From Craspedostauros australis (taxonomy: Eukaryota > Bacillariophyta > Bacillariophyceae > Mastogloiales > Achnanthaceae), in assembly GCA_026770025.1 (NCBI GenBank), contig JAMXDE010000036.1, positions 186,001 through 250,000 of the forward strand: 64,000 nt of DNA. The letters run 5' to 3'. The notes beneath the pieces were generated by a model. That model made no database searches and was not told the origin of the DNA. It worked only from the letters and a program-made list of their open reading frames with translations. This document shows positions 8,880 through 11,946 of this stretch, piece by piece. The position numbers and the translations under genes are program-made. How positions within the stretch are numbered: position 1 is the first letter of the stretch; each line of letters starts with the position of its first letter.

Positions 8880-8887
8880 AGCACTCT
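8880..8887 (+). repeat. Left 8-bp flanking direct repeat (probable target-site duplication)
   Basis: AGCACTCT lies immediately outside the left inverted terminus (ATCCCTT...) and recurs exactly at 11939-11946, immediately outside the right terminus. Confidence 0.65.
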
Positions 8888-8912
8888 ATCCCTTAACGAC
8901 CCGGGTCCAACG
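8888..8912 (+). repeat. Left terminal inverted repeat of the transposon
   Basis: This begins ATCCCTTAACGACCCGGG and pairs imperfectly with 11914-11938. Identical blocks are ATCCCTT, GACCC and GG. Confidence 0.7.
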
Positions 8913-9057
8913 CGTTCATTATATCCTTTTTTTTCGGCCCGTGTTAAATTTTGAACGAGGTTTCCCTACCAGGAGCTACGACAGAAAGCTTTCTTTTTTA
9001 ATCTAGTTCGGAACCATTCTTCTTATTCACACGGTTTTACTAGTAAAAAAAATTTCG

Positions 9058-11556
9058 TCAGCCCTGATCCTGACCATGGTATGTAGCCCAGTGTTGCTTG
9101 CAGATGTAGACATCACAGATGTTGCACATCCTTCTCACTCTTTTCGGTTTCACCCCTGCCTTTCCGTCTTTCTTTGCTTTCGCCTTCAAGAACGCACAGT
9201 ATGTGCAGGTCCGCTGGCACCCTTCTCTCACGATGAGCTCCTTGTGGTCGCGATACTCTCCTGTCAGTCTCTTCAAACTCAGCCTTGGTGACTTTCTGCT
9301 CATTCTCGATGCTGTTCGGATCGATCTTGGCACTGGCCTTGATGGTGTGGTTGCCTCTGCCCTTGCCCTTGTTAACCTCGATTCATACATGACACCTTTC
9401 GCAACAAGCCGTTCAATCATCTGCAAACCAAATGCCTTGTGCTCCAATTGATGCTCCTTTTCGACCAGCATGTTGTGGGCGATCCAGGCATTCACCCTCA
9501 GGATGTCCAGCAGGTGAAACATCAGGGGCATCCACACTCGTCGGCATCGGAGATTTGGTCTGTAGTAGGCGATGAACTGATCGCACTTGTCCACGCCTCC
9601 CATCCAGTGATTGTAGTCGTCAATCATCTTCGGTATGTGAATCCTCGCGTTCCAATTGCTCCCCCACACTTGTTTGAGGTGAGACTTGTTCGTCTGGGTC
9701 TCCCTTGGCTTGTGGCGATCCTTCTGCACTGTCTCATTTCCGTAGTGGATGGTGCTGACCATCAAGACAACATTGTTGTCGACCCATCTTGTGATGACAT
9801 GATCATCAGATTGTGTCCACAGATACAGCGAATTGAAGCGTCCATCCTCAATATCTTTCATCTCCTTCGGAGGGAAGCCACGACGATTCCGAGCAGTGCC
9901 AACGATTCCCAGCCCCATTCTCCTGGAGTTCTCAATCACAGTCTTTGTTGTGAAAAGATTATCCATCGCCACGACGTGCCCCAAATTTGGATCAAGAACA
10001 GCCATCAACTCTTGCACTGTGTTGTTGATCTTTGTTGTCTTATCCAGTCTTCCAGCAGGAAGTATATGGTACATGAACCCAGATGCAGAGCAGCACAGCG
10101 CGAAGAACTTGTATCCTTCTTTGATGGGCTTTTGCTTCATGCGATGGGTTTGGCTTGATCGGCCTTTGAAGCGTACCATCATCTCGTCAATGGAGCAGGC
10201 AAACCCTGGCTTTGTGCACACCTTCTGAGAGACCCGGTTGGTATGGTCCAGCAGAAGTTGGACCTTGGCATACCATGAGCGATCGGAAATGATCACAGGA
10301 GGTATCGAAGGTGGTGGTGGTGCAGGTTTGCAGGCTGCTCTGCTCTTGGACCCATGTGGGGCAACATTGTCAGAGAGGTCGGATAGCGTTGATGAAGATG
10401 TTGACGCATCCGCTGACGTTCCAGAAGTTGTGGCTGTCTGCGATGATGATCTGGTGCCGCGGCTCTGATCTGTTGGAGAGACATCATCATCCATATCGTC
10501 TGCAGATGTATCGCTGCTGTCAATTGAAGAATCTGACTGGCCATCCGAGTGTTCAGCCATTGCAGTGAGATGGATGTGATTCCAAATGACTTGGTATCGT
10601 GGTCTTGTCATGTATGTCATGAGCTCGTGAGAAGGAATGGAAATGGAAGCAGCTCTCCAGTAGTCCCTCTTTGCAGGGGCGCCGAAGAAGCCCATGTAGA
10701 AGTACATTGCAAGGAATATGTACAGTTCACATACTGTCACCAGTTTAGCCTTGGATCAACTGTTTCGAATATGATTGTTGGTGTGAAGCTGGATTCTCTC
10801 CACAAGAGTCTCAGGGAAGAAGATTTCCAAGATGCTCTCGATTGTGGTGGCAATATTTGGTAGTCCACGGAACTTGGGCTTGTGATTGCCCACAGGGAGT
10901 GGTGTGTAGTTGCTTCGATGGTTGCTGTTGATGTTGATGGTGTACTGACTGCCATCAACTGTTGCACGGGTGCCGATGCTTTCCTGGTTCCCAGTGCTTC
11001 CTTCAGATGGGTCAGCTGTGATTGCAAAGTCAGTTGTGATGGTTTCATTCGATGGGCTGGCATCAGTTTTGATGCATGCAGTGTTGCTCTGATTGGATGC
11101 CGTGTCCATCTGTGTGGCCATACGCGTTGACATGCGTGTGGCCATGTGCCCAGCAATGCCAGATGGATTGCTGACGATGCTCGTTCCATCCACTGCAGGT
11201 AGTGTGACGATGCCGGCATCAATTTTGCGATCCACTGCAGGTGGAATGATGATGCTGGCATCGATTTTGCCATCCACCGCAGGTGGAACGATGATGCTGC
11301 TCTTGCCATTGGTGTGCATGGTGGTTGATGAATGATTGGTTGTTGGCGGGTTGTCGTCGAGGCCCCTGAGGGTGGTTGAATCCAGAGGCAGCCATTTGCA
11401 TGGAGGAGACCGATTCAACTTTGGAGAATCGTTGAGGAAAACCACATGCGGACGAGAGCTGGTGTAGGGGAGATCAGGCTCTGCGAAGAAGGACGGCTGG
11501 CTGCTGGTTGGTGTGGAAGGTGGCTCCTTGCGCTTGGCACGGGTGAACTTGACCAT
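9058..11556 (-). pseudogene. PiggyBac-type transposase with one in-frame TGA
   Basis: The frame from ATG 11556 to the stop at 9058 spans 833 codons and is broken only by TGA at 10758-10756. Both sides stay in the same frame: '...TIESILEIFFPETLVERIQ...HIRNS', stop, 'SKAKLVTVCELYIFLAMYF'. The family's N-terminal helical region therefore continues across the stop. The DDE core looks complete: Asp in SIDEMMVRFKGRS (10186-10188), Asp in VAMDNLF (9961-9963) and Asp in GGVDKCDQF (9589-9591). The C-terminus holds a Cys/His-rich finger (CTYC...CNICDVYICKQHW), as in piggyBac proteins. The first ~230 residues are Ser/Thr/Asn-rich and unique. A CGA-to-TGA change (Arg lost by CpG deamination) would explain the stop. 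I found no splice pair that removes it. Readthrough cannot be excluded. Confidence 0.82.
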
Positions 11557-11913
11557 GATGGATGATCAGTGTGGTGATGTGATGATGTGATGTTGTGATG
11601 TTGTGATCTTTTGATTTTATGATGTGATGGGAAGGGGAGATGTGACGACAAAAATGGGATGGAGAGACCGAAATTGGGAGGGACGGGCTCGCCGAATCAA
11701 TTTTTGCGACAGTCCCGCTGGCCAAAAAACGATTCACGAGTAGTTCAGGCTCTGATTGCGACACAAGCATCCTAACAACCCCATCGAAAGCGACACATGG
11801 CTGGATCGCCCATCTCTCAAGCTTTCTTCAGGTATGAAGAAAATGATATGTTACACGTAAACGTCGACGTCAAAATGGAGAATCCGTGAAATTTTTTTGC
11901 TATTTGGATTCAC

Positions 11914-11938
11914 TATAGGCCCTGGGTCATGAAGGGAT
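11914..11938 (-). repeat. Right terminal inverted repeat of the transposon
   Basis: Read inward on the minus strand this is ATCCCTTCATGACCCAGGG, the partner of 8888-8912. Confidence 0.7.
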
Positions 11939-11946
11939 AGCACTCT
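11939..11946 (+). repeat. Right 8-bp flanking direct repeat (probable target-site duplication)
   Basis: AGCACTCT, identical to 8880-8887, directly abuts the right inverted terminus. Confidence 0.65.

Follow-up and report, generated by a model that had tools for sequence, protein, structure and literature searches.

The piggyBac-type transposon in the window is a member of a family that inserts at TATA. We put at about 0.8 the probability of the whole reading, in which the family is homologous to piggyBac and targets TATA, with a duplication of two bases (AT), and the AGCACTCT repeat beside the window copy is host sequence that predates the insertion. The window is the whole stretch of 64,000 nucleotides that was analysed, C34:186001-250000 of a 74.8-Mb assembly of 90 contigs; searches for copies covered this one genome. 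The window element is one copy of a cut-and-paste DNA transposon family with a piggyBac-homologous transposase, and its gene carries a stop. A preliminary description had reported a piggyBac-type transposase with a DDE core, inverted ends ATCCCTT/AAGGGAT with AGCACTCT on both sides, and a TTAA inside the left end. All of these are present. They are listed below with the other features of the locus (window positions).

8887..11939, minus strand (coding): whole element common to the copies, 3053 bp, tips TATCCC...GGGATA; from similarity limits against close copies, which place it at C34:194887-197939 in the genome
8890..11936, minus strand: putative mobile unit CCC...GGG, with a length of 3047 bp should the target duplication be AT; proposed for the window copy from the empty sites of other copies
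8886..8908, plus strand: left inverted arm, from an inverted-repeat search
11918..11940, minus strand: right inverted arm, from the same search
8888..8889, within TAT 8887-8889: AT, left copy of the putative 2-bp duplication, from the empty sites of other copies
11937..11938, within ATA 11937-11939: AT, right copy of the putative 2-bp duplication, from the empty sites of other copies
8893..8896, plus strand: TTAA in the left arm, replaced by TTCA at the same place in some close copies; not a boundary
8880..8887, plus strand: left AGCACTCT, host sequence, probably older than the insertion (empty site of the window copy not found)
11939..11946, plus strand: right AGCACTCT, host sequence, probably older than the insertion (empty site of the window copy not found)
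9058..11556, minus strand: transposase frame, interrupted by a single in-frame TGA (10756-10758)
10186..10188, minus strand: first catalytic Asp, D185 of the 560-aa ORF, aligned with piggyBac D268 (6x67)
9961..9963, minus strand: second catalytic Asp, D260, aligned with piggyBac D346 (6x67)
9589..9591, minus strand: third catalytic Asp, D384, aligned with piggyBac D447 (6x67)
9076..9219, minus strand: Cys/His-rich C-terminal tail, C-x3-C-x2-C ... C-x2-C-x4-C-x2-H-x4-H

Judged by its sequence, the transposase belongs with piggyBac. The window protein matched the Pfam family DDE_Tnp_1_7 (PF13843) with E=3e-43, and its kin matched with E=1.8e-43, 2.6e-45 and 1.1e-42; the solved chains of piggyBac (6x67) and piggyBat (9c0f) matched the window transposase with E=1.7e-9 and E=7.3e-8 respectively. 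Four transposase ORFs were scanned by profile, and PF13843 was the only family to exceed its cut-off; the comparison with ISL2EU-type transposases goes as far as this profile scan. The zf-Tnp_2 profile stayed under its cut-off (E=0.57 for the window ORF, 0.13 for copy L009) and was not listed for L022 and L017. The tail motif C-x2-C-x4-C-x2-H-x4-H was nevertheless seen by eye in 30 of the 31 rows of a transposase alignment, in which the window copy is counted twice (as itself and as L001); L012 is without the tail. The second and third catalytic Asp are kept in all 31 aligned rows and the first in 29, with Asn in L023 and L029. The terminal inverted repeats with CCC-type tips that mark the piggyBac superfamily are also present, as 23-nt arms (83% complementary in the inverted-repeat search) with a CCCTT tip within TAT. 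In the window copy the TGA splits the frame into two ORFs in the same frame, 9058-10740 and 10756-11556. An open frame of 804-905 codons occurs in nine of the 12 close copies (window copy included), and it is exactly 835 codons long in six of these.

A protein search of the whole genome with the transposase gave 80 matches. Twelve loci were 95-100% identical across 508 or more of the 560 residues; the other 68 rows, fragments included, showed 39-95%. We use the letters A, B, C, M, E and F as our own names for groups; family A is that of the window element. Ten near-complete copies, the window copy among them, align from about 8886/8887 to 11939/11940, and one extends 3 bases more; L010 is cut and L012 is an interrupted copy. 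In the nine other near-complete copies the similarity to the window runs from TATCCC to GGGATA, and thus does not start at CGACCC or TGACCC bordered by TTAA, the pattern that the preliminary description had named as evidence against its proposal. Groups B and C, with transposases about 58-62% identical to that of the window, also have TATCCCTT tips. On viral contigs four stretches fit a pattern, and by tblastn none of them encodes a relative.

The motif TATCCCTTNANGACCC matched the genome at 69 places, while the reversed control gave none. A looser pattern, TATNCCTTNANGACCC, returned 69 places identical to the 69 of TATCCCTTNANGACCC, so that no end has anything other than C at the fourth position. 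Among 30 loci picked by protein alone, 48 of the 50 end-like motifs have TAT in front of CCCTT; the remaining two represent a single motif, taken as internal, that occurs in two group-B loci. In DNA searches with end sequences, 18/18 left matches begin at TAT and 16/17 right matches extend to ATA. Because the protein-picked loci and the DNA searches show TAT and ATA as well, TAT as part of the ends does not depend on the motif TATCCCTTNANGACCC alone. The DNA examined contained 96 TATCCCTT motifs, three of which were left out as not end-like; none of the 93 ends thus retained (83 non-redundant) has TTAA within 8 bp outside it.

Some copies sit inside dispersed repeats, of which element-free versions can also be read. 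At 11 insertion sites, 22 of 28 empty relatives read exactly TATA where the filled sites read TAT/CCC...GGG/ATA, and TTAA was found in none of the 28. The six others read TACG, TATG, TGTA, AATA, TTTA and TTCG. At least one TATA relative was found at eight of the 11 sites and none at three. Relatives that match both flanks come from six sites: 19 of 20 read TATA and one reads TACG. With one matching flank, three of eight read TATA. The individual sites are as follows.

Site 1 (C51 and the 1.1-kb C14 element), both flanks: 1 TATA
Site 2 (C17), both flanks: 1 TATA
Site 3 (C22), both flanks: 3 TATA
Site 4 (C4:1683539-1695227, family A; C11, group B), both flanks: 1 TATA and 1 TACG, the latter from the most diverged relative (76-82%)
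Site 5 (C52, group B, and C39, group C, in opposite orientations), both flanks: 3 TATA
Site 9 (C13:697710, family A), both flanks: TATA in all 10 relatives fetched
Site 6 (six ends that have flanks in common), one flank: TATA and TATG, at 6 and 7 bp past the match
Site 7 (C30), one flank: TATA, by eye
Site 8 (C28, C14), one flank: TGTA
Site 9, further relatives, one flank: 1 TATA and 1 AATA
Site 10 (C13:1772786), one flank: TTTA
Site 11 (C15:1423351/C76:60214), one flank: TTCG, read 7 bp past the match

Seventeen of the 28 relatives come from a mechanical scan, in which the flank had to match to within 8 bp of the end and the letters were taken at that offset. Ten are fetched junctions, and one (site 7, C30 against C41) was read by eye and was not returned by the scan. 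Two relatives were left out: a C52 relative of the C30 flank (91% identical), the alignment of which ends 13 bp short, and a C41 relative of the C13:1772786 flank (74% identical). Sites 8 and 9 sit in related repeats. Family A itself occupies three of the sites, and its copy at C13:697710 has 98% nucleotide identity to the window copy. The lengths of the empty sites agree: compared with the joined flanks, exactly 4 additional nt were found in 36 of the 38 non-self matches listed for the C13 site (best 40 of 135 candidates scored) and in 32 of the 38 listed for the C41 site (best 40 of 48 candidates scored; lengths only). These empty relatives represent copies of the repeats elsewhere in the genome and not alleles; some of them could therefore be excision products.

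The bases next to TAT were also not random. Among the 83 non-redundant ends, position -1 is C in 43, position -2 is A in 42 and position -3 is T in 40, with chi-square p values of 2.6e-8, 2.5e-5 and 3.5e-5 respectively. Since the preference reads C, A, T outward from the element, it describes the palindrome TAC-TATA-GTA. The TATA at which the family inserts lies within this wider preference. A 6-bp duplication with the palindromic consensus GTATAC was considered, but the empty sites rule it out; what the flank consensus shows is a target preference to either side of TATA. In two cases elements of different groups were found at one TATA of homologous repeats: the B element L021 (C52:119807) with the C element L091 (C39:266590), and the A elements L012/L042 (C4) with the B element L019 (C11). 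Particular TATA sites are therefore either hit repeatedly or exchanged.

A TATA empty site and a TAT/CCC...GGG/ATA filled site, as sequences, allow zero, one or two duplicated bases. AT is the symmetric choice with the largest duplication, and we therefore take the element to be the one with CCC tips. The transposase would then expose 3'-OH ends at ...GGG, and these would be joined to TATA at positions 2 nt apart on its two strands, a 5' stagger (T^AT^A). With such a stagger only the central AT would be duplicated, and precise excision would restore TATA. We infer this 2-nt stagger, the excision chemistry and any current activity of the family. This would be a different geometry from the 4-nt one of piggyBac.

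The 4-nt geometry would be preserved if cleavage of TATA left 4-nt 5' overhangs that pair only at the central AT, the outer mismatches always being resolved towards the element. The Paramecium enzyme PiggyMac, which acts at NTAN, provides a precedent (PMC3408717). However, unbiased repair should leave some TATACC ends, and none was seen at the 69 places. Because all 69 ends have C at the fourth position, 4-nt overhangs with unbiased repair are improbable, and we regard the explanation with 4-nt overhangs as unlikely overall.

Another possibility is that no base is duplicated, either because a blunt TCCC...GGGA lies between TA and TA or because TATCCC...GGGATA replaced TATA. Every pair of a filled and a TATA-empty site is matched by this explanation as well as by the AT duplication. 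Two points speak against it, namely that a CCC tip is typical of canonical piggyBac and agrees with the tips found here, and that DDE enzymes usually make a symmetric staggered cut. The same ambiguity has been stated for the ATon elements of Aedes (PMC3422177). We consider an insertion with no duplicated base to be quite unlikely.

The preliminary description had proposed that the 8-bp repeat AGCACTCT is the target duplication of a piggyBac-type element, and the repeat beside the window copy does adjoin the element ends exactly. In the same register the copy C5 matches in 7/8 positions and the copies C20 and C21 in 6/8. In addition, the TATCCC register shows identical 6-bp flanks in 2 of 23 complete copies (GCACTC in the window, TTATAT in C5), which is above the permuted mean of 0.08 (p=0.0015). 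However, an exact 8-bp match is absent from 22 of the 23 complete copies, the only one being that of the window itself, and the empty sites give TATA without an 8-bp repeat, which leaves at most two bases (AT) duplicated. When flanks and empty sites of other copies are aligned, as that description had suggested, neither a recurring TTAA nor a recurring 8-bp duplication appears. We therefore judge an 8-bp duplication to be very improbable: it does not hold for the family, and AGCACTCT is probably an older host repeat. The remaining piggyBac-like option, an ordinary TTAA element that sits within, or had jumped into, an older palindrome and has its true left border at TTAA 8893-8896, where CTATCCC-TTAA-GGGATAG would form the palindrome, is ruled out for practical purposes, because the similarity between copies begins at TATCCC, many ends read CCCTTCATGACCC without TTAA, and the empty sites contain no CCC/GGG.

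Under insertion at TATA the repeats around the window copy and around C5 probably existed before the insertion. The window contains the word AGCACTCT 6 times, whereas shuffling predicts 2.26 (6 was reached in 5 of 100 shuffles), GCACTC occurs twice more within 200 bp to the right of the element, and the C5 flank TTATAT is AT-rich. The excess of matching 6-bp flanks, together with the 6/8 matches in C20 and C21, is not fully explained. A genome search with the joined flanks of the window copy (135 + 48 bases) matched only the window copy itself; because its own empty site was not found, its target is deduced from its kin. The predicted target is GCACTC-TATA-GCACTC and the predicted empty allele ...GCAGCACTC-TATA-GCACTCTTC...; an allele that contradicts the 8-bp duplication would read GCACTCTATAGCACTCT. 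A 1.1-kb derivative, L048 (C7:972724-973845), has a right flank that starts with TTCAAATCA, a word that recurs 12 bp from its left end.

TTAA specificity is a hallmark of piggyBac. Like the window family, piggyBac from Trichoplusia ni and piggyBat have a DDE_Tnp_1_7 core, three catalytic Asp and CCC tips; they also have a Cys/His-rich tail, which the tail motif read by eye suggests for the window family. They differ in that they target TTAA and duplicate 4 bp, whereas the window family targets TATA and duplicates at most 2 bp; the 4-bp TTAA duplication of the superfamily was found at none of the 93 ends and in none of the 28 empty relatives. The specificity of piggyBac for TTAA has been ascribed to single-stranded recognition, including a T0-A3 hydrogen bond of the target (PMC7351741). 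The same paper describes roles for R275, Y283, K290, Y439 and N440, and in the strand-transfer structure Y283 stacks on a target A (PMC7351741). In a pairwise alignment Y283 falls on R200 of the window transposase (R in 28 of the 31 rows), and R275, K290, Y439 and N440 fall on K192, K207, Y376 and N377 respectively.

Departures from TTAA are also known elsewhere. Pokey from Daphnia, like the window family, tolerates some non-TTAA sites and favours C beside the target; its duplications are TTAA in 88.13% of cases and otherwise TTAT, ATAA or CTAA, with the central TA kept (PMC3849761). In Pokey the centre is TA and TTAA predominates, whereas the window family has AT at the centre and TATA as a rule. 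The ciliate proteins PiggyMac and Tpb2 are, like the window family, piggyBac-derived enzymes freed from TTAA. When PiggyMac cuts out IESs, the 4-nt overhangs have TA at their centre, and one TA stays behind (PMC3408717, PMC8086355). PiggyMac and Tpb2 are, however, domesticated transposases, unlike the mobile CCC-tipped elements found here at TATA. The AT dinucleotide target that marks ISL2EU-type and ATon elements is found in the window family as the centre of TATA; ISL2EU duplicates AT. The nonautonomous ATon of Aedes aegypti, which we liken to the window family by description and not by sequence, inserts at AT, with a duplication and an insertion between A and T equally compatible with the data (PMC3422177); in the passages of that paper on ATon, its autonomous partner and enzyme are given as not known. 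Among diatoms, a Phaeodactylum element weakly related to piggyBac, with a homolog in Thalassiosira, has been reported (PMC2806351). It shares with the window family a diatom host and a piggyBac-related transposase, a likeness by description and not by sequence; the passages on it name no target site. The passages obtained from the open-licence PubMed Central literature contained no description of a piggyBac element that targets TATA or AT.

More distant piggyBac-like groups occur in the same genome. PF13843 gave 160 matches here and none in 14 control genomes, and the matches include groups whose open frames are about 889 and 900 codons long. Two copies of group E (L117-L126; L099, L100, L103, L104) have ends CTAGTGCC...GGCACTAG with CTAG on both sides. 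For one of them the joined flanks had 4 additional nt in 39 of the 39 non-self matches listed (best 40 of 98 candidates scored), and ten fetched empty relatives read CTAG (5), CTGG (2), GTAG (2) and TTAG (1). Group E appears to duplicate the 4-bp CTAG, which is the largest fit; a 2-bp TA duplication also fits. The right ends of group F (L101, L102) read GGCA/CTAC and GGCA/GTAG, which suggests an NTAN target; one tip pattern of this group occurs at 17 places in the genome.

Together, these results make it somewhat more probable than the contrary that a piggyBac-type lineage has changed both its target and its cut geometry (a 2-nt stagger at TATA in place of a 4-nt one at TTAA) beside a group that duplicates CTAG, so that target choice would have diversified within one genome. 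Natural relatives at TATA and apparently at CTAG would offer sequence pairs for testing what determines target choice and stagger. For annotation, it follows that elements of this type escape searches based on TTAA, and that direct repeats flanking a single copy can look like a duplication.

The idea of a diatom lineage with altered target choice, also put forward in the preliminary description, held as far as the target (TATA and not TTAA) is concerned; its 8-bp signature did not. As to the host, the silicon-transporter family PF03842 gave 88 matches in the genome (best 830.9 bits), whereas only one of the 14 control genomes gave a match and none was above the cut-off. The 88 matches fit a diatom. 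Many of them are full length with nearly equal scores and look like a large expansion. Elsewhere in the window, positions 23785-46000 contain three tandem units of about 7 kb, which are 97-100% alike in most of the stretches sampled and less so in some. These units contain 108-bp repeats, the translation of which looks ankyrin-like by eye.
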